NCBI RefSeq assembly: GCF_921293095.1
Contig: NC_060247.1
Span: 115,277,111-115,341,110 of the forward strand
Source of the DNA: Ischnura elegans
Taxonomy: Eukaryota; Arthropoda; Insecta; Odonata; Coenagrionidae
DNA: 64,000 nucleotides
Direction of reading: 5' to 3'
Below are positions 4,190-62,290 of this stretch, piece by piece (position 1 is the stretch's first letter; the number at the start of each line of letters is the position of its first letter). Below the pieces are notes generated by a model that was not told where the DNA came from, did not search any database, and saw only the letters and a list, made by a program, of their open reading frames with translations. Both the position numbers and the translations under genes were made by a program.

Positions 4190-4302
4190 TAAATCAAAAC
4201 TTGAAGCATTTACGTGGTGGAAGGGATCCATATAAACAATGAAAACACTTTGTTACTTCTACAAAATATTTTGTGGAAGTAACAAAGTGTTTTCATTGTT
4301 AA
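4190..4302. mobile_element. Tiny foldback insert, copy 1, with 12-bp TSD
   Basis: A 113-bp segment is flanked by perfect copies of TACGTAGGATAT (4178-4189 and 4303-4314). It contains a nearly perfect palindrome at 4235-4300: two 33-nt arms (AACAATGAAAACACTTTGTT then ACTTC..), one mismatch and no loop. The rest (AAATCAAAACTTGAAGC, then TTACGTGGTGG) matches, in inverse orientation, the insert at 62550. A 12-bp duplication suits target-primed reverse transcription rather than a cut-and-paste element. Confidence 0.8.
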
Positions 4303-4454
4303 TACGTAGGATATGATTATCTTCTGGCGAGTATTTGAAGTAAATTCTGTTTGAGTTCTCCGTCCGGCTACTGTGCTCCGTCATCTTAGCAGACATTGCT
4401 ACGAAAGACTTTATTCTTCATCAGGACCATATTCTTCATACCGGGTGTGAAGTG

Positions 4455-5811: not shown

Positions 5812-6863
5812 CTTTTAAGCCTCTAATATCCTCCGCGATTTTATCCGCTGCAGCTTCCTGAAGGTATAACGTAAAGAATCAACTATAGACGTGATATTGT
5901 AGCAGTAGAATTTCGAGTAGGCTAGTTGTATCAATTGCCAACCTCGAGAACATCCTCATGATGCGCTATCAAAGGGAATCCGGCCGATTTCCAGCAATTT
6001 GCGATTGTACTGGAGGAAATAAAGTGCGTCTTTGAACCGTGTTCCTGCAATGAAAAATGACAATTTTAACTTTTTTAATTTCAAGGTTAACTTGGCCATT
6101 TTAGCAAAGTTAACAAAATCGTTATTTCTCGTCGCAGAAACACGGTTCAGAGACGTACTTGAAAGCCTGATTGGCAGGAGTGCGATGCAAACAATTATTT
6201 TTGATGATGGCATTGATTGATAGATTTTCAAAATGCAGTCAGAGCGGTCACTTTTGGGGAGAAAGGCTCGGAGGGTCGAAGAGAGGGGCCAGCGAGGGTG
6301 AGCTCGTCGAGGAAAGGGTCCCGGATTAGGGACCCTTCGAAGTGCTTCGGCGAAAAGTAGTCAAGTAGTCTTCGAAGTACGTTCACAGCAGCTTGCCTTG
6401 CGAACGTACCAGGTACGTTCACAGCAGTGCAAAGGGTTAATTAAGAGTGTAAGAAATACCCCGCGTGACCTTCTTGACATGTTAAACTACGAATCATTGT
6501 CGATGCGATGTTTACGAATAGGCTCGTAAATAGGGGCTTTATGTCAGTCGCGATATTTTACTTAACTCCTACTTCCCCTAATTTCCCACCGTGAGGTTTT
6601 AGGCGAACCCTTTCTCTCCAAAGTTGCACTATCATTTACGATTTCACACTTTTGATGAACCACAGTTGGAAGCGCTGATTTTTTTAGCTACATACGCCGG
6701 CGTAACTAGTTTTGTTGACAAATATTTCGCCATAGTTCGTATAAACGAATACCTTTCGCTCCTGGGGACCGATCCGGGGTTCGTAAATTCAAAACATTTC
6801 GTAAAATCGAAACTTCGTATAATCGAATAGCACCATGTATTTACCATAGGCTTTTCGCCGGGA
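5812..6863. other. Decayed repeat sequence without a gene
   Basis: The stretch holds short AT-rich frames with no recognisable domain and a local direct repeat (GTACGTTCACAGCAG at about 6378 and 6412). Several tracts of the type TTCGTAAAATCGAAACTTCG at 6730-6830 look like degenerate pogo-like subterminal repeats. Confidence 0.35.
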
Positions 6864-17707: not shown

Positions 17708-17934
17708 AGGCCGTTGTACACGGGTCACGGAATTGCGCAGGTTAGAGCTGTATTAATTTATAAAATGGCCCGGAATTGCGCGAATGCATGAACGAAATTA
17801 GAACGGGCTATTTTGACTTCTCGCATGTGTTCTTCACACGACGTTCTTCATGTGATCTTTACACGACGCAATTTTGATTGCGCCTTCGAACGTACGTCAG
17901 ATTGCGCAATTCCGTAAACCGTTTAAAACGGCCT
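17708..17934. mobile_element. PIF/Harbinger-like MITE, copy 1
   Basis: Ends are AGGCCGTTGTACACGGGTCA and the inverse AGGCCGTTTTAAACGG. About 227 bp long, the same size as the copy at 24496-24721 and sharing its internal text (GGAATTGCGCA, ACGTACGTCAGATTGCGC). No coding capacity. Confidence 0.75.
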
Positions 17935-17937
17935 TTC

Positions 17938-18267
17938 TGGCCGTTTTACACGCGGGACGTCATCGCGCAATTTGACGTAGGTATATACGAAGGCGCTATC
18001 GCAATTGCGTCGTGTAAAGCGGTGAATTGCTTGATCGCATGCGAGAAGGCATTGACGTAGGATGGCAAAATAGCCCCTGTTCTTATTTCGTTCGTGCATT
18101 TGCGCAATTACGAAGGCGCAATCGAAATTACGTAGTGTAAAGCGGTGAAATGAGTGGATGTGAGACGGCAAAACAGCCACTGCTCTAATTCCAAGCTCGC
18201 ATTCTCGTGATTTCAACATTTTTTCAGAGCTAACCAGTGCAATGACGTGTCCCGTGTAAAACGGCCC
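17938..18267. mobile_element. PIF/Harbinger-like MITE, copy 2, adjoining copy 1
   Basis: Begins TGGCCGTTTTACACGCGGG three bases after copy 1 ends, and finishes CCCGTGTAAAACGGCC before CTAA. The interior carries extra repeats of GGCGCAATCGAAATTACG type. Two elements side by side may mean tandem insertion or an internal duplication. Confidence 0.7.
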
Positions 18268-18439: not shown

Positions 18440-18990
18440 CTCCTTTGTACAGAGTGTGTTCGTGTGGAACTGCTTTCTACACATTTGGAACTCCTTTTGA
18501 ACGATTCGGCAGGATTTCCAGACGTCATCATTCGTATTGTAACTGCTGTGTACGGAAAAGATTCATTTGGAACTCCTTTTGAACGAGACGACAGGATTTC
18601 CGGTCGTCATCATTCGTATTGTAACTGTTGTGTAATGAGAAGATTCATGTGTAACGGCTTTCCATACATATGATTTTACACTTTCCCGGCGAACAACTTT
18701 AGAAAAATCTTCTCGGGATACCGCGCGGGTAAGATTATTTGAGAGCGCCCGAATAATCAACAACATATGGAGAATGAGTTGTTGGTATATTATTATTTTG
18801 GCGCTCTCAAATAATCTTACCCGCGCGGTATCCCGAGAAGATTTTTCTAAGGCTTTCCATACGTTTACAATTCTTTGTTGAACGATTCGATAGGATTTCC
18901 AGACGTCATAATTCGTATTGTAACTGCTGTATACGGAGACGATTCATGTGTTACTGCTTTCCATACGTTTGCAATAGACCTCTGGACACC
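18440..18990 (+). repeat. Subterminal tandem repeats of the THAP element
   Basis: Units of roughly 83-110 bp contain TTTGGAACTCCTTTTGAACG, GACAGGATTTCC, CGTCATCATTCGTATTGTAA and CTGCTGTGTACGG. Unit starts fall near 18484 and 18567, and a third unit is split by the foldback at 18668-18850. Such arrays near a transposon end often serve as transposase binding sites; that role is inference here. Confidence 0.7.
18668..18850. mobile_element. Foldback insert with perfect 51-bp inverted repeat
   Basis: Arms at 18699-18749 and 18800-18850 are exact reverse complements (starting TTAGAAAAATCTTCTCGGGA and including ACCGCGCGGGTAAG) around a 50-nt loop. The 12-mer GGCTTTCCATAC lies directly before 18668 and directly after 18850, and also occurs alone in another array unit as CTGCTTTCCATACG. 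The 183-bp segment is therefore probably an insertion with a 12-bp target duplication, nested in the THAP-element array. Confidence 0.8.
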
Positions 18991-25394: not shown

Positions 25395-27590
25395 CAGCAC
25401 ATTCAAAATTTTAGTTAATAACTTTTCATTATAGGTCTCTTAACCGAAATTCATATTTTTGATGATATAACCTATCGAGTTAGTATCTTGTCAATGTTAT
25501 TCCTCTCGTGCGCAAATATTCCATCGCAAGTAATGGGTACAAATGGATCGCTCTGCGCTTATCGCCGCCTTGCGTACATTTTTGAAAACGAATTAAGACG
25601 GGCGTGAAGTTGCAGCATAAGTCAAGGCTCCATGGGACGGTCTGAGAAGGCCCTCTCTATGTGTTCTCCTTAGTCGGGACACTTTGGAAATATTCAGAAA
25701 ACACCGCAGTGAGCATTAGGTTCGTCTCTCTCTCTCTGTTGCATCGTTCAAATTACTTCCATTCGGGCTAACTTTTCTTCTTATGACCAAGGGGTGGTCT
25801 GGCGTGATTGCGGGGATTGATAGGGCACTCCCTCCGGGAAATTCGGGGGTCCTCCGCCGAAAAATTTTAGGAAGTTGCTACCCCGGAAATATATTTTGAC
25901 GATTTTCTGGCTCTTAAAAACTATATAAAAGTTACTCTTCCTTTCCACCCGACCCACGCGCCACTACCCCTTTTTTGAAGACAATGTAAGTACGGAAATC
26001 CAAAATCCTCTCCATGCTCTTACACCCGTATCCCATCTCTTCGACCAAACTCCGTCCCTGGCATTTCCACCCCTTGACCCTCTCCTCAGACCGTTGTTTT
26101 TTTATTTAAAAAATGATTTTGTGTGTGACCATTTATTCTCTGTCTTCTATGCATTTGTACCAGATTATGACGCACCACGTCGAAATCTAGGTCGTACATT
26201 AAATATTTATGTGGAATCACAAAGTTTTCTTTTCATTATGCATAAAAGTTAATCAAATATATCAATTTCGCAAGAAAAAAATACTACGAAAAGTGAGAAT
26301 TCCGTGGCTTATAAAATAAAAAAATACTATGGTTCTATTATCTATTTAGTGAATTTGTTTCTTGAAACTGCTCTGTAATCTGAAAAAAAAACTCTAAAAT
26401 AACATTTTCGAATAGCCCTTTTAAGAAAGAATCAGATCCTCTCTTATCTTCCGATACCTTTATTTCATTTATTATTTAAATAATTTTGGTACACAGAGTA
26501 TGTTGTAAGTAAAGAAACTAATGACAAATTATAAATTTAACTGCAAAAAAACTTTGACTTAAGTAATCTGAGAATTTTTTTAATAACTCCTCTCATATAC
26601 TCTTCACGATAGACGCGAGCGTTGTGGGCCCCCCCTAATCTCGGGGCCCTCGGCGATCACCGACCATCCGACCTGACCAGATCGTCTCTGTTATGACCCC
26701 AAGGCCAATTAGTGAGTCTCTTTGACTACAGCTCGCACCGTATATTTACCATTAAGTCGATTTTTGGGAACTTTTGAAAATTTTTATAGTATCTAAAGAC
26801 GATGCTCAAAGCCGTTGCGAGCGAGGGAGGGGTATCTAAGACGGTGGCGATTTGGTATGGGGAGGGTGGCGGCTGACCCCCCGTAATTTTTTGAAAAATT
26901 GAGGTGGTAATCTGTATGTTGGCTATCAAATAATAAAAATTTTCATTTCACCAACATAATAAAAAACGTTGGAGCAACATATATTATAATCTATTTATTT
27001 AATATAAATAACATAAACTTCTATCAATTGTCGCATTAATTTCTAAATCTGCTTTTTTAAATTTGAAGTGTATTCGTTTAAATGTTATATTGGATATTTT
27101 ATGCACTGTAAAATTAATTTTTTATACTCAGCCACTTTTGTATCTGTTGCACATCTCATCTTTTAGTATGATAAGTCTTGAACATGGAAAATAACGCTGG
27201 CTAGTATGTTTTTTCTACATGACCTACCTCAAGAGTTCATATTTAGGTGTTACGTAAATTAATTTCTCAAAGTTGCATCTGAATTATCAGATTCATTTCA
27301 CGTTCTCAATCCGTCGGCGTTACTTCGTTGTGTCGCGGTGGTAGCGGATGAGATGCAGGTGCCACGATGACAGATGGCGGACGCTCACAAGAGAGGGAGG
27401 GTGACGTCACGGCTATCAGGCAGATGCATCTGCGGCGAACGATGGACTAAGCTGACGAAAGTGTCATCGACAGGTTTAACGGATCGCATTACGAGGGAGA
27501 GTGTCACTGGACCTGTGTAGTTCACACATTCAGGGGTCAAGAATGATCGCTGCTTTTCCCGGCGAATTGTATCGTGGAAAGTCATTCGAG
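25395..27590. other. AT-rich intergenic sequence
   Basis: Contains decayed element text at 26800-26900 (GCCGTTGCGAGCGAGGGAGG) and C-rich tracts at 26630. No gene or RNA was recognised. Confidence 0.35.
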
Positions 27591-27742
27591 GTTTCCACGA
27601 GGGTCAGGTCCATCAGGGCCGACGTTTCGACGAACGAGTCGGCCCTCATCAACAAGGCATCCCTACCCATTGCTCTGATGACGATCGACGACTTTTTCAT
27701 CGAAACGTCTGCCGTGTTGGAGAACCCTACCCGGTGGAAATC
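27591..27742. repeat. Foldback pair D of the CGTTTCG module
   Basis: The left arm has GGTTTCCACGAGGGTCAGG followed after a short spacer by GGCCGACGTTTCG. The right arm, read on the minus strand, has GGATTTCCACCGGGTAGGG and then GGCAGACGTTTCG. Between them lie hairpin-forming segments; on the minus strand one reads GUUGAUGAG...GUCGAAAC, and on the plus strand another reads CUCUGAUGACG...AUCGAAAC. The pair shares layout with 29373-29635, 40044-40230 and 42911-43119. Confidence 0.65.
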
Positions 27743-27849
27743 CCGAATAACCTTCCACCATTCAGGGTTCAGCCTCTCTAGTTCCATTCTCTGAGGCACC
27801 TCGCATAGCTGAGAATTTCAGTGTGAGGTTGTTCGAAGATTTCATCTGA

Positions 27850-29372: not shown

Positions 29373-29635
29373 GATTTAATGAAAACGAGAGATCACAATT
29401 TTCCACGGATTTATTAACAAAGTACGACGCGTTTCGACCGTAACGTCATTCTCAAAGGCAGACGAGCATACGAGGCAGAATGACCAATGTAAGTTCACAA
29501 CTCAAGAGTAAACTCATTTGCACAAGAGCGCTCAAGGTGGCTGCATTGTACTTGAGAATGACCTTACGGTCGTAACGTGTCGTGCTTGATTAAATTAATT
29601 TGTGGAAAATTGCTATATCTCTTTTTCATTAAATC
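29373..29635. repeat. Foldback pair A of the CGTTTCG module
   Basis: The left arm runs GATTTAATGAAAACGAGAGA, then CAATTTTCCACGG and GTACGACGCGTTTCGACC. The right arm, inverted, runs GATTTAATGAAAAAGAGATA, CAATTTTCCAC and GCACGACACGTTACGACC. The arms also carry GACCTTACGGTC and its variant GACGTTACGGTC, which fold as short hairpins beside CGAAACG. No convincing target duplication was found. Confidence 0.7.
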
Positions 29636-29900: not shown

Positions 29901-30929
29901 ATATAGTAGTATAAAATCCTCTGCAACACGTGAATCAAAGGTCTGTGGTTCTCCCGGTCAAGGGATTTTTTTTCTCACGGCAATTTTTGTATGTTAGATA
30001 TCTAAAGAAACGTAGGAAAAAATGGATATTTTAAAACAAAAGTCCATGAAGAGAGTCATTTTCTAGTTTTTCCTTTCCCTTATCAATATTGAAGGAGGGG
30101 ATTACGGTGCTGGCCTCAGCTTTTGCCCACTGCGCAGCCACTTTGAGCTCCCTGTGTGCATGAATTTGCTCTTGAGGTGCGAACTGACATCGGTCATTCT
30201 GCCTCGTCCGGCTGTCTGTCTGCCTGCTCCCCCTCACCCCACCCCCCAAAACGATTGTTATGGCTCGCGCCGTGACGGCCCGGCATGGTGGCGTCGCCTC
30301 TCGCCGCCCGCACCAACTACTCGCACTCGAGAAAGAAACATTTGCCTTGCGGTCTGCGACGGAACGGAAAGCCTTTTGGGGGAACACCATCGAATGTCCG
30401 TGTGTGTGGCTGTGCATGCGCCCTTCCATTCGGGCCCTTTAACATCCACGGCAATTACGATCCACTAATCCCCCTCCTCCTACGCTCCCCCATTCATTGT
30501 ATCCTCCGCGCAAAAGGGGAGGGGGCGTGAATGGGGTGATGATGGGATTGCCGCGGGGGCCCTCCCCTTTTCGAAGGGCCTCGCATTGAGATTGGGGGGG
30601 GGGGGGAGGAAATGACACTTTTGTCATCTGTGATGCGTTTCACTTGCCGCCGCACCCATTGTGGTGGCCACCTGCTCCCCATCCCCACCTACCCAGACGA
30701 GAGAGTGCATTCCGTGCGAAGCGAAAACAAACGACGACCGTGTGTGCCCGGCTCCATCCGTTCTCGCTTCGTGTTGTCATCCCTTGTTGAGGGCAGGCGA
30801 GGCCGATTATTATTTATTGGCTTCTGCACGTGCCGCCGAGATTTAAATACCTCGAAATGAAGTGTGGCCCACCCTCTCCCCCCGAGTAAGTATAAACAAG
30901 AGCGTTTAAGGTGGCTTACTGAAATAGGT
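29901..30929. other. GC-rich island without a recognised gene
   Basis: Bases 30060-30880 are much richer in G and C than the surroundings, with overlapping open frames on both strands and a G12 tract at about 30595. No domain, splice pair or codon-like pattern was convincing. It could be an unannotated promoter or first exon, or an old GC-rich repeat. Confidence 0.35.
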
Positions 30930-35538: not shown

Positions 35539-36392
35539 CAGGGTTTGTCCGGAAAGTAATAGGACTGATTTTCTTCCGCCGCGACTGTACTTCGGAGCGT
35601 GCGCGCACGAACTGGATTCGGTAGAGGGTGTTCATAGCTAACGAACGAGCGGCTGGTCTGTTGTCTCCGAGCACCTGGAGAGTCAGGACAGACATTTTTG
35701 CCCGACGTGTTTCTGTGAGTGGTGCAAGCCGAAAATGCAGCGTTCGTTTGAGCAGAGGTACGCGATTAAATTCTGTGTGAAACTCGGTAAATCTGCTACA
35801 GAGACGTTTGATATGATCAAGCAGGCTTACCCAGATGTTGCTTTAGCAAGAAGTGGTGTGTTTCGGTGGCACCAGACCTTTTTGGAGGCCCGGGAAGAGG
35901 TCGCTGATGAAGACCGTGCTGGAAGACCTGCGACTTCGACAAACACCGACAATGTGACTCGTGTGCGCAAAGTTTTGAACTCAAACCGTCAACTAAGTAT
36001 TCGTTTAATTGCCCAGATGTTAAATTTATCAAAATCTGTGGTTTATGGTATTGTGATAGAGCATTTGAACATGCGCAAGGTGTGCGCGAAGATGGTCCCA
36101 AAAGTGCTCACTGACGACCAGAAATTGCGGCTCACATCGCCTTTCTTGTGAACAGCTACCTAACCACCTGCCCTACAGCCCAGATGTGGCCCCCCCGGAC
36201 ATTTTTTTGTTTCCTTGCCTGAAATGGCCGATGAAATGCCTTCCGTGACGCCTTCAATGCTTGGAAATTGCGCTGGCAGCAATACATCAACGCAAAAGGA
36301 GCCCATTTTGAAAGTTTCTAAAGAATTGTAACGATTAGCTCAATATTTTTTTTTAAATCGACTCAGTCCTATTACTTTCCGGACAAACCCTG
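35539..36392 (+). mobile_element. Internally deleted mariner element (854 bp)
   Basis: Perfect 30-bp inverted repeats at 35539-35568 and 36363-36392 begin CAGGGTTTGTCCGGAAAGTA and are flanked by TA on both sides. Complete mariners are about 1.3 kb, so roughly a third is missing. Intact ends mean it could in principle be mobilised by an active relative. Confidence 0.95.
35735..36151 (+). pseudogene. mariner transposase, N-terminal half
   Basis: The 138-codon frame starts MQRSFEQRYAIKFCVKLGKS and holds the paired helix-turn-helix DNA-binding region, including VFRWHQTFLEAREEVADEDR, AGRPATSTNTDNV and LSIRLIAQMLNLSKSVVYGI. It then reaches MVPKVLTDDQKL, the 'VPHxLTxxQ' block of mariners, and breaks off. 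Downstream, in other frames, PYSPDVAPPDIFLFPCLKW (the third catalytic aspartate block) and NAWKLRWQQYINAKGAHFES (C-terminus) can be read. The deletion has removed the first two catalytic aspartates, and a frameshift separates the remaining parts, so the enzyme is dead. Confidence 0.93.
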
Positions 36393-36579: not shown

Positions 36580-36736
36580 CTCTGCATTTTCTTCGAGTTC
36601 TCACCGCGTCCGTTGGCTTTTGTTGGCATAGTTTCGCTGACATTGCGGTCAACGTATTGAGGTCGAAGGTCACTGTCAGGTCGAATAAAATATTGTCAGC
36701 AAAAGACAACGGACGCGATGAGAAGAAATTGCAGAG
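36580..36736. mobile_element. Foldback/MITE with about 50-bp inverted arms
   Basis: CTCTGCATTTTCTTCGAGTT, CTCACCGCGTCCGTTGG and CTTTTGTTGGCA at the left recur inverted at the right as CTCTGCAATTTCTTCTCATC, GCGTCCGTTGTC and TTTTGCTGACA. No target duplication was resolved. Confidence 0.65.
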
Positions 36737-38172: not shown

Positions 38173-39990
38173 GCTCAGATTTACCGCGCGGCGGGGTTTG
38201 TAGTACAGAACACCCTTTTTCTGACATGCTTCGCATCCATGTCGTTACAAGACTTCCTTTTCTAATTTGTCACTTCGTTTACGATTCTTTATAATGTCTC
38301 ATAATTGGTTTCTTTGTTTTAGAATGGTCATGTCACACTACTAGCTAAATTATTAGAGTAAGTTTACTCAAGGTCCTCGCGAAAGCAAGGATATGAACGA
38401 ATACTTTGACTTAGGAGAGGGGCTGCTTGAAGAGTATCGAGAAAGAAGATAGAAGATTCTTATTGAATGCTTCCGAAAATGGGAGAATGATTAAGAAGCA
38501 TTTGATATTCGGGAATGAAGAATGTCCTATTGATTCCACCCCCAGGCTATGGTCGAAATATGTATTCCCATGTTCACGCAGCAAGTGCTCAGCATGCGCA
38601 AGTATAATATAATCCCTGGGGCGGAGGATCCTTGAATTCAAGAATAGGGGAGCGATAGGAGAGGACAGGATGCGGGATGGAAATAGCGTGGTAATTAGGG
38701 TGACGATAGGATATGAGACAGGTTATGGAAATCTATGAAGGCTTAATAGTATCCGTGCACGTTGACCAGAAAGAAATCAGTTCTTGTATTAATTTCATCC
38801 GAAATTGTGTCCCTCAAAATTTTCCCCTGGACAATGATAGCGCCGATATGGGGTGAAGGAGATTGCCAGCCTGAAGCTTCATCTTCGGACTCATTCATCG
38901 AGTTACCTTCGTTCAAATTCGAATTTTATATTCAAATGTCAGTGGCACTGGCTCATGGGGACATATTGACAAGGTTTCCTGCGTGGAGACCCTGAAGTTA
39001 TGTGTTAAAGCGATATTTTACTTCGTTTCAAAGTGTTACTCAATCAGCCACATCAGAATCATTTAGAAATAGATTGAATTCATACGTTTTTTGTTGCGAA
39101 AAAGCTATATTTTTGGTCGATAAAACTGTTGAACACATTAAATTTGACTCTGAACCCTAATTAAAAGACAATTGCGAGTGTAGGCCATTGTCTTCTGCAT
39201 TCTTTCGGCAAAGGTCAACATTATGTTGACTGCAGGAGAAAACTAGGGAATGTGGGCTTATCTTCATTAGGGTGTGCTGGAGGCATCTTTCAGTATCATT
39301 ATATAATTTAACGAGAAAATAAACTTGGAAATAAAATTGGAAACGAGAGATTAGTTGAAGGAAAATTTGAGTGGGGAGCTGCATCAGATAAATTAGAATT
39401 GCTGACCTTAGGTGAAGATGATGATCATTCATGGCAGTTACCAGAAAAAAATTCGGGGGATGTGAAGGGTTCATTTCCAGGGGTTGGGGGTATATTTTAG
39501 GGAGCGGTTCATTTGGACTGGATACAATTAAGACCGTACGTCGCGAACATTTCGGGGTGTTTTGAATCCAATGGACCCCTATACTACGGGATCATGTAGT
39601 TGTCTTAAACTGAAATTATTCGATGATACCGAAGCGAATCATGGATTAAGGATAACTTTTGCCCCTAAAATTGTTTGATCACCGCTACTCTTACGTTCCG
39701 AGCTATCAGAAATATTTTTCTGTTACGAACTTCCTATTTATGAAACGAATCTTTTTCCGCTAAGCGGCCCGGTGTCACTGGAGTACTGGACCAGAGCATA
39801 ACTTGCGTAATATATATGGTACCACGTTTAAGTAACTGTCCAACTGCCCAGTAAATTTCCAAGTGTTCTCCTATATGCTCACTATTCGTGCAGTTAGGGT
39901 CAGTTACTCAGAGGAAATGTAAACTTGAGCTCTCGAGGCTGCGTAGTTATTAAAAGCTGAAGCCATCATCATAACTGTAAACTTCAATAT
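38173..39990. other. AT-rich sequence without a gene
   Basis: I saw only short frames, the largest a 105-codon minus frame at 39157-39474, without a domain. Confidence 0.35.
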
Positions 39991-40003
39991 TATTATGTTA
40001 GTG

Positions 40004-40229
40004 TAAGTTCAACAGAGGCTTTAATTGGTGGAAGTTAGACATATTTAAATAAATAAAAGATGGTAGCACTTTTCCACAGTTTTTTTTACTGCGTACAACG
40101 CGTTTCGGCTCACAGAGCCATCATCTGGTACAAGACTTCATCCACAAGACTACATCTGGTCTTGTACCGAAACGCGTTGTACGCAGTAAAAAAATTATGG
40201 AATAGTGCCACGATCTTTTCTTTATTTAA
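40004..40229. mobile_element. Complete foldback element B with 12-bp TSD
   Basis: ATTATGTTAGTG occurs at 39992-40003 and 40230-40241, enclosing 226 bp. Within it, arms at 40044-40108 and about 40168-40230 are imperfect inverted repeats: TTTAAATAAATAAAAGATGG, GCACTTTTCCACAG and GCGTACAACGCGTTTCGG. On the minus strand the left arm reads CAGAUGA, a GGCUC/GAGCC hairpin and GAAAC, close to a hammerhead core. This is the best-delimited copy of the module also seen at 27591, 29373 and 42911. Confidence 0.8.
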
Positions 40230-40326
40230 ATTATGTTAGTGGCTTAAGGAAAGGGGGTGAGGGGCGCCCCCTTCGTATGCATACGACATGGTACTCAAAG
40301 TATAAAAATATGATAATAATAATATC

Positions 40327-40580
40327 GATGGCTAAGTTCTAACAACGCACGTATCTCAAATTCGGCCGGTTTGAGATAGGTATCTTAAACAAAGTGTTAT
40401 AACATTAAAAAATAAAATTCAAGCAAAAACCAACTCTTTGTTTGCAAATAAATGCTTTTTTTTAAGTTTTATGAACTTTTAGTTTTTAATTACAGTGTAC
40501 AAGTAAAAGAAATTAATCGTTTTTTAGCTCTCCTGAAAATTTGCTATTTTTGAGATGCGTGTTGTTAGAACTTAGCCATC
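40327..40580. mobile_element. MITE with GATGGCTAAGTTC ends
   Basis: GATGGCTAAGTTCTAACAAC plus GCACGTATCTCAAA at the left recurs inverted at the right as GATGGCTAAGTTCTAACAAC plus ACGCATCTCAAAA. About 254 bp, AT-rich interior. The flanking duplication is not clear, so the superfamily is open. Confidence 0.8.
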
Positions 40581-41864
40581 AATGTATTTTATTCCAAAAT
40601 TAAACCCATAGGTATAATCGTTTGGAGCACACTATTAATAAGGAGCTTCAGGCAACCTCAAAGATGCCGCCTGCAGAGAAACCGCCTTCCGTAACATAAA
40701 TAGTATTGCTTGCACTTGATTAAATAATTTTTTCAAAGCCAAAACAAAACTATGCGATCTCCGCATTTGACACCCAATCATGAGTTTATAGCGTTGTTGC
40801 TTTATTCCACACACCTTTCGTCATTGCACTTTCTTCAAAGTGTTATTTTGTCCATGATTTCCTCGTCATTTTTGCCTCTATCGCTAATTGGCGCTATGGG
40901 ATTCTGAAAAATCTCCGCCACAGAAAGGATTCGAACCCGACTCACACCAACCCGATAACCCATTCCCTCCCCAAAAATCGCCGTTATATAATCTTACTCT
41001 TTGAGCACAGCGAAGCCGGCGCACTGGTGCTTTCCTGCCAGCAGATTATCGGATCAGAATTTCCGACCGGATATTGTGTATCTTTACTCCCGTATTGTAC
41101 AGTAAAAATGGAGAAAAAAATCGAAAGATGTCAGTGGAATCGGGCCCTGACTGTCATCTGTCTCTGGAGTGATTTCGTGTGATAATTCCTCGTCCAACAA
41201 TGGGTCGAGCACACAATCTGTCGGCCCTGAAGGGGAATGAATATCTCCGGGCCCTGCCACACGATCCGCCTCGGTCACACACTGTGGGCTCTTTGCGCCC
41301 CGCGGCGAGGGGTTGTAGTTGCCTCGAGGACAACGTTGCCGTTTATAATAGGTATCAATAGCCATGTAATATTTGCGGCCGAGCCCTGAAGGAGCTAGGA
41401 TGCAGGTGCTGTGAGGTGTATTTGCACTTCATGATCACGAGGAGGATGTTCTCTAACTCGTGCACGTGTTTTCGTGCGATATTTTCGTTTTTTTTCGGAA
41501 TTCCACGGAGAAAATAAATTAAAAATCACTCGATGAAAATGAAAGAAAAAAAACACCACTCAAATTACCCTGAAGGGATCAGTGAGTTATTTCATGTACT
41601 TAGGTGCAAGGACGAGTAACCGTAAGTGTTCGGAATATTAAAACGATTGGAGGTTCTGCTCAATGGCTGACCCGATTTTTAACTGTCAAAAGAGTAAATA
41701 AAGTCAAAATAATGATAAAGCCGGTTGCATTTAGATTAACATTTTACATTGATTGATTTCCTCCACGAAGAACTGATGAAACCAATCGTAGTTTGAGGTC
41801 AGGAGAGTTCCTTCTCGTTTAAATAATATTTTTGCCGACCTAAATGGAAAGATCAGACATTTTA
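40581..41864. other. Sequence without a confirmed gene
   Basis: A 93-codon minus frame at 41084-41365 has mixed composition (LLDEELSHEITPETDDSQGP) and could be an exon, but I recognise no family and no paired splice sites. A weak tRNA-like box B (GGGTTCGAATCC, minus) is at about 40935. Confidence 0.35.
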
Positions 41865-42467: not shown

Positions 42468-42550
42468 TTCTCGGGTTTCCAACCGGGTTAGGGTGTGCAT
42501 ATTGTAGGCCGACATTTCGTCGGGAGACTATCCCAACATCTTCAGGGCTG
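42468..42550. repeat. Single-arm relative F of the CGTTTCG module
   Basis: Reads GGGTTTCCAACCGGGTTAGG, then GGCCGACATTTCGTCGGGAG and CATCTTCAGGGC. On the minus strand this gives CCUGAAGA, one U, a seven-pair hairpin GUUGGGA/UCCCGAC and GAAAUG. It directly precedes the tiny insert at 42577. Confidence 0.65.
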
Positions 42551-42576: not shown

Positions 42577-42688
42577 TTAGCAATGAAAGATACTTCGTTA
42601 CTTCCACAATTTATTAAAAAAATAAACTTCTTGAGATAACGAAGTATCTTTCACCGCTAATGTGACATGCTTCAAGTTTCGATGTAAT
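42577..42688. mobile_element. Tiny foldback insert, copy 2, with 10-bp TSD
   Basis: The flanks TAGCGTTCCG (42567-42576) and TAGTGTTCCG (42689-42698) match at 9 of 10. The 112-bp insert carries GCAATGAAAGATACTTCGTT and its inverse, then GCTTCAAGTTTCGATGTAAT, as do the inserts at 4190 and 62550. Confidence 0.7.
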
Positions 42689-42910
42689 TAGTGTTCCGGT
42701 ATATAAACCTCCTCCTTCACCTAGGTGGTCCCTGATTGGTTCAGGGACTAATCAGCGACCGCCTAGTACTGTCAAATGTTCCACAAGACCCAATCAGGGA
42801 TCATCATTCAACTCATTCACCGGGAAAGCTCAGATAGTCCAAATGATTCAATCGTTGCATGCTCAGTTTTGAGGAATTTCGTCATGATGATGGAAATGAC
42901 AACGGCTCAG

Positions 42911-43119
42911 TAATTTTCCACACAGCGTTTATTTAACCGAAAAGGTTTCGACACTCGTATGTCATCATCAAGGGTACATCAAGGAGTGTTGTTGTACCAG
43001 TTTCGACACTTAATGTGCCATTTTCTAGGGTACAGCTCCACTCCTTGTCGTGCCCTTGATAATGACACATTGAGTGTCGGAATCGGTAGCATTAAGTAAA
43101 CATTGTATGGAAAATCACT
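42911..43119. repeat. Foldback pair C of the CGTTTCG module
   Basis: The left arm is GTAATTTTCCACACAGCG, then AACCGAAAAGGTTTCGACAC. The right arm, inverted, is GTGATTTTCCATACAATG, then CCGATTCCGACACTC. Each arm carries CCCTTGATRATGACA with a UGUC partner and GAAA or GGAA, and a third partial copy lies between them at about 43005-43040. No target duplication was found. Confidence 0.7.
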
Positions 43120-43159
43120 AGATCCCTCAGAACTTACATTTGGAGTATACTTCTCTATG

Positions 43160-43565
43160 GAAATTAGAAATGGACACAGATAGAAGCGGAGAAATCAAGG
43201 GTAGAGACTTTTGAATTGTGGTGCCACAGAAGAATGACGAGGATCAAATGGACCGACTGAATTAGTAATGAGAAAGTACTTAGAAGTGTGGGAAAGAAGA
43301 GAAGCCTCATGAAAACCTCGATAAAAAGACGGAACAAACTCATCGGCCATATACTATGACATGATGGCCCGATGAAGACAATCGTCGAGGGACAAGTGGA
43401 TGGCAATAACGGAAAAGGAAGATCACGAATAGAATATGTGGAACAAGTAAAGAAGGATGTGAAGGAGGATAAATACGTAGGTGACAAAAGGTGATGAGAA
43501 AATGGAGTGGAGAGCTGCGTCATAGCAATCTTAGGATTGTTGACCAGTGATGATGATGATGATGG
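43160..43565 (+). mobile_element. LINE C-terminal and 3' end, copy 1
   Basis: The plus strand, with frameshifts and stops, gives RVETFELWCHRRMTRIKW, KRSLMKTSIKRRNKLIGHIL, MKTIVEGQVDGNNGKGRSR and a terminal CAATCTTAGGATTGTTGACC followed by a (GAT)n run. This is the 3' end of a non-LTR retrotransposon coding for endonuclease and reverse transcriptase. It is 5'-truncated and dead. The short 3' microsatellite is the kind of tail left by RTE-like elements. Confidence 0.75.
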
Positions 43566-45067: not shown

Positions 45068-45450
45068 TTATTATCATCATCATAAGTAAACAATCCTATA
45101 AAGGTTGATTTGCTGCAGGTCTCCTATCCGCTAGCCTTTTCATTTTTACTATTTTATATCCTTTATAAACTGTCCTATGAAACTCATTCGGGGCCGTCTC
45201 TTACCCTCCTTCTCTACCACCTGTCTCTCTACGATTGTTTTCGTCAGGCCATCACGCCTCATAATGTTGCCAACTAAATTGTCCTGTCTCCTCCTTAAGG
45301 TTTCTCGAAGACTTCTCTTTTCTCCCACTTTTCTTAATACTTTTCTCTTTACTTACTCGGTCGCTTTGTTTCATCATTACCATTCTTCGATAACACCACG
45401 TTTGGAATGACTCCACTCTTGGATCCCATAGATTTTTGAGCATATTAATT
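45068..45450 (-). mobile_element. LINE C-terminal and 3' end, copy 2
   Basis: The minus strand reads with frameshifts WCYRRMVMMKQSDRVSKEKS, then a basic segment and ...GRKRPRMSF-type text. Its 3' end (45068-45085, plus-strand ATTATCATCATCATAAG) is the (GAT)n tail of the same family as 43160-43565. It is a dead fragment. Confidence 0.7.
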
Positions 45451-46085: not shown

Positions 46086-49000
46086 GCTTAATTCTCTTTG
46101 ATGTGATTCTCCCTTGATTGAGGTTTTGTGTCATTTTCGACATGAGAAAAGGGTACAGTTCAGTTTAGTTACGCATAATACTCCAGGTGCTGCGCTTTTC
46201 TACACATTTTTCTTTGCACGCTAATTGGCGCACGAGCTACCGCAAATGAGAGCTGGGAATCGTTCATTTACATTGGGAACAGGGTATTCACAATTATTTA
46301 TTCAGCAAGGATAATTTATTCCCAGTGATATCGGCATTTGACACACAATCGTGAATTTGCAGCTTTGCCTTGCACCTCACACTTTTCGTCATTGAAATTT
46401 CTTCGATGTATGTTTTCGTCTATTAATTCCTCTTCGTTTTGGTCTCTGTTATGTTGATGTTGTATCAGTTTATGACGCTATATTGCTTTCACAGCCGGTC
46501 TAATTTTTCTATATCTTCCCCGTTTCAACGTACTGTAAAAAAATTCGAAATGCTAACACGAATTCAAATATGCCGACATGTAACCCTTAGTACCAAAAGA
46601 AAATATATGTAACTTTTTCACGATTGAATGGCATACCGTGTTGGCAATTAGAGGCTTAAAGACAGGGTCACGGCTCACAGTGATCTGGACTAGAAAAAAG
46701 TTGTCCAAAAATAGTTATTATTGTCCAGTTTTGCTGAAAATTTGGCGTAAATGTTTTGCTGGGATCCTTATCATGAATATGGAGTCAAATCTCAATTTTT
46801 GTGACAAGAAAACGGCTGAAGCTAGGTACTATGTTATGAGAACAATAAAAATCAGTACTTTCTCTGCCATGCAGGTAGTGGTAGTATCTCCGTTTTGCAT
46901 GGGCCTAATTTATCTTCTATAATGTTGTTCTCTAATTACAGTGAATATAAAAACTCAGTGGAATAGTTCTCAAGTAGGAAGTGCAAACAAAGGATCAGAA
47001 AAAAATTGATTGCTCTTAATTTGCTACTCTCAGTTTCGCTTGATTTAAATGCTACCTGAGAAGTATATATATCTGATAAATCATGAAATACCAGTACCAT
47101 TCTTTAAAGATGCGAGCGATAGCATTAGGGATTGATTGAGAGAATTACAAAGTCAAAATTAAATATTTCCGCTTGACTCAAATCCGCTGACGTTAAAAAT
47201 CACTCGTAATCGGGAGAATCATTTCCTCATCATCTTGGGTTTCCTTGTCACATTGTTCGCATAATTCTACATCATCAAGTATTTCACGACCAGGTATTAG
47301 TAAAGACCGTCACCAAGACATAGGAAGTTCTCCTGATGATTATGTAACACGATGAGAAGTCAAAAGCAGACTGTGAAACACATCAGAAATCGAGTCTATT
47401 CTTGAAATTTTCCGGTTATGTTCTTTTCTGAACCTCTTGTAATCTTACCGTCGTGATTCAAGGTTTTCCTCTGTAAGTTATTAAATTGGAAAAATTGCTT
47501 CACGTAAAACTTAAGCTCCATTAATAAAATTTTGCGGACGGAGAAGGTAGGAAGAACCAGGGGGATGATTTGATAGGTATTCCCTTCAAGCTCTAACTGT
47601 CAAATTTCTCACTGATAATGGCGTTGCGACAAGAAAATGTTATCAACACTTGTTTTTGCTCTATCCCAATGGAATTCAATTTTACCACCGCGACATGGAG
47701 AAGTTTTAGTTATTTCAGTCAATAATTTGCGACTTTATTGGTGAATGACCTCAATTGCTTTGTCTTTTTCTCTTCTTCATTCGGAACGGATTCTGCTTCC
47801 GACAAAAAAATTTTCGTGGCCGTACACGCACAAGGCCTGGGGCTAATGACGACATTAAAAGATGAGATAATGGGCATGATAAGGAAAGAAATTCAATTTC
47901 ATTATCGTAATGGATTAAGAATGTGTATTAATATCTTAAGTATCATAATTTCATGTTTCGCATATTTTCCTTCTGCATAATTTTTCACATAGATCTTCAA
48001 GACTCAAGGTATAACGTAGCTTGCCTTCTTTTGTTTTCGAATTTAGCTTGTACTGGCTTTCATCGAAAATCTATGTCATAGTTTGCGAACGAGAGACTTA
48101 TTAATTTGCGTACTGCATGGAATAGCATCTGGAAGGTTGAACGATATAATACTCTAAAAAAACTTCTATCTTTCAATGGCTTTTTCTACTGTATTTGCTA
48201 CAATTTCTGCGTATAGACGCAACGATTATCTTGTGGATGTCTTGAATTTCCTCCTTAGGTAACGTTGATGCATTTAAGTGCAACAAATTTATTTTCAAGC
48301 CGAAATCGTAACAATAAATCCTAGGGTTTGATATTAACTACTTAAAACTTCTGAACTCTTGTGAGAACGGAGATTTCTGCGGTGTTATGTGAAGTTCTAT
48401 ACATTTCCTGTTACTACCGCGTCGGTTGCTGTGGCGGTGACAACAATGTCACTGACACTATCGCCAGAGTCTTCTATTGTCATCGCCACAGAAACCACAT
48501 TGTTATGAGCACTTGATGGTTTTCATCGTAGAATTTTGATTAAGGTCGTCCGCGATGATGACACTTATCGGGAATACGACTTAACAGCATAATACTTTAA
48601 GATTTTACCCAACTTTTTCTCACCAATGTTGAGAAGCGACAGATTGTTGGAAAATAGAGAAGCAAAGCTCTTATAAAATTATATTTTTTTAAATAATTCC
48701 ACCCAACACTGACCAGACGTGGTTGGATAATTAAAACTTTCAAGAGGCCAAAACCCAAATGTTCCACATGCTGGCGCGGCGGCTGGGCGCGCGCTCACGA
48801 CCAGTCGCCTTGGACCCTCCAGGGGAAAGTAAACAAATCTCCTGGATCCGCGAGTATTGGCGTATTATTTTCAGTGGCCCCATTAATAACATCACAGTTC
48901 GCTTAATTCCTTTGATAATCCCCCACTTTACGCAGGTTTTTATGTATCTATAAACGCATAATAAGTTGATTATGAAAACTTTACTCCCCACATTAATTGT

Positions 49001-49866: not shown

Positions 49867-50385
49867 TTGTTGCAACTATGGGCGCATTCCTATATGTTAA
49901 AAAAAGAAATACTGGAGGAAACAATTTATCAGATTCATCAGAATTCATTTATCAAACAATTCTACGTATGGAGTACGTTTTTCTGCGGGAGTGAGGCTTC
50001 AGCGTTGACAGCAGCAGAGAAGTCAAGAGTGGAAGCATTCGAAATGGGGTGCTACTGTAGAATGATGGAGATAAAATGTATCGACCGAGTAAATAATTAT
50101 GAATTGCTGAGAAGAGTGGGAGAAAAGAGAAGTCTTCTAAAAATCTTAAGAAGAAGACGGAAAAACTTATTTGGCCACAATATGAGTCAAAATGACCTGA
50201 TGAAATCATTCGTAGAGGGACAGGTGGAAGGGAAGAAGGGCAAGGGACGGCCTCGAATGAGTTACATAGGACAGGTTATGAAGGATGAAATACGTCACTG
50301 TGAAAAGTCAATCAGGAGAGGGGAATGAATAGCTATGTCAAACCAATCTTAGGGTTGCTGACTAATGATGATGATGATAAGCGCG
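49867..50385 (+). mobile_element. LINE C-terminal and 3' end, copy 3 (best frame)
   Basis: A continuous frame encodes GSEASALTAAEKSRVEAFEM, then CYCRMMEIKCIDRVNNYELL, RRVGEKRSLLKILRRRRKNL and EGKKGKGRPRMSYIG. This is the C-terminal region after the reverse transcriptase domain of a non-LTR retrotransposon. The tail CCAATCTTAGGGTTGC then (GATGAT)n ends the element at about 50385. The reverse transcriptase and endonuclease domains are absent, so it is 5'-truncated. Confidence 0.82.
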
Positions 50386-61979: not shown

Positions 61980-62290
61980 CCGAGTTAGCGCTGAGAAAGT
62001 GCTCGGAAGAGTGGGAGAGGAGAGAAGTCTTCTAAAAACCTTAAGGAGAAATCGGAACAACTTGTTTGGCCACATTATGAGGCATGAAGGCCTGATGAAA
62101 ACAATTGTAGAAGGACAGATGGAAGGGAAGAAGGGCAACGGACGGCCCCGAATGAATTGCATAAGACAAATTATAAAGGATATAAATGAGAAGACGTGTG
62201 TTTTAATGAGAAGGATAGCGGATATGAAAGAGGAATGGAGGACTGCGTCTAACCAATCTTAGGATTGTATAATAATGATGATGATTACAT
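61980..62290 (+). mobile_element. LINE C-terminal and 3' end, copy 5
   Basis: The frame reads EKVLGRVGEERSLLKTLRRN, RNNLFGHIMRHEGLMKTIVE, GQMEGKKGNGRPRMNCIRQ and ends ADMKEEWRTASNQS at the tail CCAATCTTAGGATTG plus (GATGAT)n. This is the C-terminal end of the same LINE as 49867-50385, 5'-truncated. It is followed without a gap by a minus-strand SINE. Confidence 0.8.

Follow-up and report, generated by a model that had tools for sequence, protein, structure and literature searches.

The question raised by this locus is what kind of element produced a short foldback that lies between two copies of a 12-nucleotide direct repeat and carries a hammerhead-like motif in only one of its arms. It is located in a 64,000-nucleotide stretch of the Ischnura elegans genome (the window), which was examined by self-comparison, pattern scans and descriptor scans. 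The initial annotation considered the foldback to be a self-contained and complete mobile unit derived from RNA, and also mentioned Penelope-like elements (PLEs) as a lead. The insertion is called e1 below, and its parts and the related loci are listed in Table 1.

The two copies of ATTATGTTAGTG are located 238 nucleotides apart and enclose an interior of 226 bp (40004-40229). A match of this length is rarely produced by chance in sequence generated from the dinucleotide frequencies of the window. It was reached in 3 of 20,000 simulated pairs when 75 nucleotides before the left arm were compared with 20 nucleotides at the end of the right arm, and in 0 of 2,000 when the simulation was repeated with 70 and 20 nucleotides. 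Thus, the exact repeats and the simulations confirm that this is a 226-bp foldback insertion with a real target-site duplication, as originally claimed. The repeat begins with ATTATG and is preceded by CAATATT. The local alignment of the two arms continues 7 nucleotides into the right repeat (to 40236), which we take as chance, and therefore the right boundary of e1 rests on the repeat itself.

The arms of e1 are arranged head-to-head, wherein the same sense sequence is read outwards from the centre and both 3' ends face outward. An outer pair of segments (40043-40086 and 40188-40231) extends over 44 nucleotides with 6 mismatches, and an inner pair (40081-40108 and 40167-40194) extends over 28 nucleotides with none. 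The imperfect inverted arms described previously are therefore real, but they are longer than the two sequence words quoted at the time and they are not symmetrical, since the left arm starts 39-41 nucleotides inside its repeat. The larger value for this tail applies if the left arm is cut opposite the point where the right arm meets the repeat. On its sense (minus) strand, the tail starts with ATG and continues for 13 codons without a stop. The right arm is missing 20 nucleotides in which the greater part of the hammerhead-like core and hairpin of the left arm is located, and there is a CC dinucleotide on each side of the gap. A covariance model, R1, of 88 positions was built from five arms (e1L, e2L, e2R, e3L and e3R, where L and R denote left and right), and it also matches the right arm of e1, which is outside the training set (40152-40231, 45.6 bits, E 6.2e-8).

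Table 1. Coordinates of the parts of e1 and of related loci in the window.
Feature	Position	Strand	Basis or remark
Left target-site duplication ATTATGTTAGTG	39992..40003	+	Exact 12-nt direct repeat
Tail, left arm only	40004..40042	-	39 nt; no right-arm partner
Left arm, pLTR-like 3' part with hammerhead-like core	40043..40136	- (sense)	Inverted repeat; R1 match 40043-40131, 88.0 bits (arm used in training)
Hammerhead-like core CAGAUGA-u-GGCUC UGU GAGCC-GAAAC	40102..40127	-	Descriptor scan; left arm only
Spacer between foldback heads	40137..40158		22 nt, between 10-nt inner arm ends GTCTTGTACC
Right arm, without 20 nt of left-arm sequence, flush with right duplication	40159..40229	+ (sense)	Global arm alignment
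Right target-site duplication ATTATGTTAGTG	40230..40241	+	Exact 12-nt direct repeat
e2, related foldback with head-to-head arms at 29373-29455 / 29552-29635	29373..29635		No duplication found
e3, related foldback with head-to-head arms at 42904-42997 / 43030-43125	42890..43166		
e4, same architecture as e1, repeats 27527-27539 / 27759-27771 (12/13)	27527..27771		
e5, hammerhead-like motif CTGAAGA-T-GTTGGGA TAGTC TCCCGAC-GAAAT, e4-related	42507..42546	-	Descriptor: 1 seen versus 0.2 expected
e6, related arm without a partner at 26157-26238, flanked by TATGCAT repeats 26148-26154 / 26237-26243	26148..26243	+	

This anatomy resembles that of PLE insertions. The features that a curation guide gives for these elements include 5' truncation, inverted pseudo-LTRs (pLTRs) and short 3' extensions (PMC8969392), and an optional tail of 30-40 nucleotides on one pLTR has been described (PMC3846280, PMC11167929). 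Perhaps the closest comparison is with Pen2a of Adineta vaga, which is described as sharing with e1 an inverted pLTR, an optional tail (31 bp) on one inverted pLTR and a short target-site duplication (9 bp), and head-to-head is given there as the most frequent arrangement of rotifer Penelope insertions (PMC3846280). Pen2a differs in that it keeps an ORF and direct pLTRs, whereas e1 has only two truncated arms. When the same features are sought in the window, head-to-head arms are found in e1 and related arms at e2, e3 and e6, and on the basis of this layout all of them could be the pLTRs of a PLE. One-sided tails are present in e1 and in e4 (34 nucleotides) and are not seen in e2. Similarly, short duplications are present in e1 (12 of 12 positions) and e4 (12 of 13), and there is none in e2.

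Because the arms, tail and duplication fit those of described PLEs, and because e4 repeats the design, we consider e1 most likely to be a bodiless PLE insertion scar that is composed of two 5'-truncated pLTR ends and a 22-nucleotide spacer and nothing else. On this anatomy, we place the probability of a PLE origin at about 0.8. There are no matches to a PLE reverse transcriptase or GIY-YIG domain in the six frames of positions 27,001-57,002 (E up to 0.01), and thus the identification rests on anatomy. A bodiless scar need not contain such an ORF. Further points against a PLE origin are that e2, the closest relative of e1, is without a recognisable duplication, that the e1 tail is not seen on e2, that two arm pairs (e1L-e3R and e2L-e3R) are not significantly similar, and that the arm alignment of e1 overruns its right boundary. 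Among the leads given in the initial annotation, Penelope is the best available and appears to be supported by the layout of e1, whereas the proposed mobile unit derived from RNA fits less well than a PLE scar with one tail, inverted arms and a replicate at e4. Nor is e1 self-contained or complete, since it has no ORF of its own and its arms resemble the truncated ends of a larger element. Most likely, e1 is not an independent mobile RNA, and is another case of a known insertion type rather than the first of a new one.

Inverted repeats that are long but imperfect, a small size and the lack of a long ORF are also characteristics expected of a foldback or MITE-like DNA transposon whose terminal inverted repeats are moved by a transposase acting in trans, and a MITE-like foldback of different sequence adjoins e1 at 40315-40593. 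However, terminal inverted repeats should abut the duplication at both ends, whereas in both e1 and e4 the right arm is flush and the left arm is separated from its repeat by the tail. In addition, the solitary arm at e6 has no partner in the 260 bp upstream, and duplications of 12-13 bp are long for most DNA transposons. We therefore regard a DNA transposon as improbable.

There are five further loci in the window (e2 to e6) that carry similar motifs, and the relationships between their arms were assessed for 36 pairs with 400 shuffles each. The left arm of e1 is similar to e2L (z 12.0), e2R (z 8.7) and e3L (z 5.5), and e2 is in turn similar to e3 (e2L-e3L z 4.9, e2R-e3L z 6.2, e2R-e3R z 3.9). 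The pairs e1L-e3R (z 1.7, reached by 40 of 400 shuffles) and e2L-e3R (z 0.3, 161 of 400) are not significant. A further pair, e3L-e3M (z 10.6), was rejected as an artefact of overlapping stretches. Model R1 finds two arms outside its training set, namely e1R and e6 (29.2 bits, E 4.8e-4 for the latter), and its next match has an E-value of 0.12.

There is no significant similarity between e4 and e1 (e1L with e4L z -0.3, with e4R z 2.1). Both arms of e4 are similar to e5 (e4L z 6.7, e4R z 6.9), and these two loci form a second family. A short-core model, R2, separates this second family poorly from noise, as its matches are e6 (E 0.059), e4R (0.079), the site 48278-48298 (0.33) and e4L (0.34). 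The locus e4 repeats the e1 design in a family that is not detectably related. Its flanks, CATTCAGGGGTCA and CATTCAGGGTTCA, agree at 12 of 13 positions, which was reached in 0 of 2,000 simulations when the right copy was kept near the arm and in 1 of 600 in a wider search space. The e4 arms end at 27574 and 27758, its tail (27540-27573) is on the left, and there is no gap between its right arm and the repeat.

The remaining loci are less clear. For e3, repeats at 42890-42899 and 43157-43166 match at 9 of 10 positions (26 of 1,500 simulations), and the gap of 31 nucleotides between right arm and right repeat, with 4 nucleotides on the left, is a mirrored and weaker version of the e1 design. The length of the 7-bp repeats at e6 was reached in 75 of 5,000 simulations. 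Several search spaces were tried for each locus, and therefore the weak duplications at e3 and e6 carry little weight. The agreement between the arms of e2 ends at 29373 and 29635, no more than about 2 nucleotides from the position matching the flush end of e1, which suggests that e1 and e2 have a near-common 3' boundary. The best candidates for an e2 duplication are an exact one of 6 nucleotides and one of 9 nucleotides with one mismatch, and neither is convincing, as simulations for e2 reached such matches in 253 of 5,000, in 457 and 419 of 2,000, and in 209 of 600 cases. Homology between the e1 tail and the left flank of e2, proposed from a MAFFT alignment, was dropped because its score of 5 is below the shuffled mean of 6.6. 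The right flank of e2 also matches the tail, at a level reached by 23 of 1,000 shuffles, but this is the best of four comparisons and no weight is placed on it.

In summary, the design with one tail and two heads is found in two scars of the window (e1 and e4), and weakly in a third (e3). The window holds similar insertions that differ in length and core rather than copies of one 226-bp unit, and this is expected of scars left by one type of machinery.

A dispersed repeat of unassigned kind is located at 30095-30225 (minus strand) and again, with 84% identity, at 29470-29544 inside the e2 loop, where it may be captured host or repeat sequence. The same repeat is weakly matched (E 0.02) at 39937-39974, directly left of e1. 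About 75 bp after e1 begins the foldback at 40315-40593 (arms 40315-40360 and 40549-40593, about 85% identical, arm sequence GATGGCTAAGTTCTAACAACGCACGTATCTCAAA), which looks MITE-like. There are further palindromic or inverted-repeat stretches at 42577-42660, 17771-18112, 18699-18850, 6022-6160, 36580-36736 and 4231-4304. The single Pfam match at E up to 0.01 in the six frames of 27,001-57,002, a weak one to HTH_32 (PF13565) at 35858-36052 (E 0.0029, 18.6 bits versus a cut-off of 33.7), is, we presume, possibly a mariner-like remnant. A 153-amino acid ORF at 49867-50328 has no Pfam match at E up to 0.01, and we take it to resemble the C-terminal region of an ORF for a LINE reverse transcriptase. 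Sequences related to the DNA at about 50007-50380 are present at 45068-45421, 43179-43560 and 61997-62285.

The hammerhead-like motif of e1 has the minus-strand context GUAC-CAGAUGA-u-GGCUC-UGU-GAGCC-GAA-ACGCGU-U-GUAC. Matches of the same quality, defined after the motif had been seen as a core with at most one mismatch, 0-1 extra base, a 5-bp stem with at least four G-C pairs and an exact GAAAC, occur in 0 of 150 simulated sequences of 64 kb. The motif noticed earlier in the minus strand of one arm is therefore real and unlikely to be due to chance. If any 5-bp stem is permitted, there are 2 matches in the 64-kb window versus 0.087 expected. A looser hammerhead descriptor is not above chance, with 7 matches versus a mean of 4.56 and a maximum of 9 among 25 shuffles. 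Among seven copies of the motif, all 21 cells of stem II pair, but only one pair has changes in both partners, a result that 201 of 500 shuffles also give. These copies were chosen for having the motif, with e1R, e4L, e4R and e6 left out, and their covariation score was reached by 24 of 500 shuffles, which provides weak support for the stem.

The conserved core CUGANGA...GAAA is present only in part, as U4 is replaced by A (CAGAUGA) and GAAA is retained. The covariance search suggested in the initial annotation gave no hammerhead family for positions 39900-40340 at E up to 10, and no hammerhead reached the gathering score in an Rfam search of the whole window. PLE pLTRs are described as bearing minimal type I hammerheads that are without helix III or loop-loop contacts (PMC7761336), and a covariance search may miss such forms. 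These minimal ribozymes are reported to cleave as dimers (PMC7761336, PMC6466107 and PMC10085705, citing Lunse 2017 and Cervera 2014). The e1 motif is comparable in that stem III is short or missing. Its stem II has 5 bp, a stem I of 4 bp is possible as GUAC/GUAC on either side of the core, and the palindrome ACGCGU, which overlaps and follows the core, could form stem III only between two molecules. It differs from the minimal PLE hammerheads by the A at U4, by the extra U before stem II and by the presence of one core instead of tandem cores. In the predicted joint fold of two separate e1 copies, no hammerhead is formed, and in the predicted fold of e1 itself the GAAACGCGUUGUAC stretch pairs with the other arm.

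We conclude that the e1 ribozyme is probably a dead relic with a motif inherited from a parent element, because Rfam gives no hammerhead match up to E 10, position U4 holds an A, the core of the right arm is lost, GAAACGCGUUGUAC is predicted to pair with the other arm, and two copies are predicted to form no hammerhead pair. A comparison with the Anolis PLE (PAc, or Poseidon) gives a similar contrast. That element is described as active, with a hammerhead that overlaps the start of the ORF (PMC11167929), whereas the ATG in the e1 core meets a stop after four codons.

Two pattern scans of viral contigs gave one match each. The match to the hairpin word (L001:1389-1445, minus strand, contig IMGVR_UViG_3300025924_000032) is a probable type III hammerhead that is located directly upstream of an apparent gene start. 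It matches the Rfam type III family (RF00008) with 33.1 bits and E 9.3e-6, below the cut-off of 48.5. It shares with e1 the word CUGAUGA-u-GGCUC...GAGCC-GAAAC, including the extra U, and since it scores as type III, an additional base in front of stem II need not preclude a hammerhead. Unlike e1, L001 has a complete three-stem topology and a perfect core and lies in a viral contig, and no homology is implied. The second match (L002) is within a long ORF of a phage-like contig and is taken as chance. There are 8 matches in a scan of genome contigs, all with bacterial titles, where about 5 were expected by chance on a rough prior estimate.

The motif also brings to mind a non-LTR retrozyme. Elements of this type are non-autonomous and spread via small circular RNAs, which are cleaved by the hammerhead that they themselves carry. 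The size of e1 is inside the 150-300 bp range described for the repeats of animal retrozymes and its core is type I-like (PMC7761336), and e3 has two motif copies in the same orientation, at 42935-42972 and, oriented as its left arm, at 42994-43026. However, the published picture of animal retrozymes is one of tandem repeats that carry canonical hammerheads, whereas e1 is a single inverted pair with one degenerate core, there is no tandem copy beside it at the locus, and Rfam finds no hammerhead. A retrozyme is therefore highly improbable. We give still less credence to a microRNA-like or other regulatory hairpin locus. Both strands of e1 are predicted to fold with about -103 kcal/mol and Rfam reports MIR396 with E 2.3e-5, but the score of 34 bits is far from the cut-off of 80 and the other strand is nearly equal (32.6), which is what generic base pairing along any long hairpin would give, and such a locus would leave the target duplication unexplained. 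MIR396 and the other Rfam matches at e1 were rejected as far below their cut-offs.

How might a PLE generate one tail and two heads? The transposition mechanism of these elements is described as little known (PMC11167929). The same report on the anole element describes a protein that cuts and extends both strands and prefers ATT in AT-rich DNA, and reverse transcription that begins at two internal sites, wherein the interval between them corresponds to the tail (PMC11167929). One possibility is that the target, an AT-rich site, is cut by the PLE endonuclease in a staggered manner, with the 12-bp overlap that is evident from the duplication, and that reverse transcription is then primed at each of the two DNA ends and starts within the RNA of the element. 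The right end would use one start site, and the left end a second site 39-41 nucleotides further downstream, which would produce the asymmetry observed as the tail. Both cDNAs would end a short distance upstream of the hammerhead region, and joining of their heads would give the observed arrangement. On the right side, the polymerase would skip the stem II hairpin between the two CC dinucleotides, which could account for the 20-nucleotide deletion, and fill-in would create the target duplication. Given a PLE origin, we judge priming at both ends to have an even chance of being correct.

The main rival within a PLE origin is snap-back copying, wherein the first cDNA folds back, primes itself and is copied, and the hairpin is skipped during this copying. 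Self-priming was preferred by the authors of one study for PLE inverted repeats with junction palindromes (PMC3846280), and the inner 38 nucleotides of the e1 arms (10 + 28) are identical except for the 20-nucleotide gap. Against self-priming, the bases before the turn (CATCTG) pair poorly, in our reading, with those adjoining the copied stretch. All six substitutions between the arms are in their outer part (6 of 44 versus 0 of 38, p 0.028; versus 0 of 28, p 0.075), which also counts against it, but weakly. Moreover, copying of the left arm alone would bring the tail to the right end, unless it stopped at the boundary seen in other arms. Given a PLE origin, we hold snap-back copying to be a reasonable but less likely explanation than priming at both ends.

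Returning to priming at both ends, it is doubtful, though conceivable, that such twin priming is the standard PLE outcome, with the same RNA copied at both DNA ends, one start site per DNA end and exactly one tail per two-headed insertion. This would fit e1 and e4, which have strong duplications and arms that are not detectably related, and e3 weakly; e2 has neither duplication nor tail.

The practical result for the window is that e1 should be annotated as a PLE-type scar and that five other places have similar motifs. In very short insertions that retain a duplication, a single tail and both heads, the start sites and the join are visible with no ORF between them, and a genome rich in such scars would allow twin priming to be tested against snap-back copying. 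If twin priming is the standard outcome, the hammerhead hairpin would be close to the site at which cDNA synthesis ends and the heads join, and small bodiless scars would be end products that directly record the start sites.
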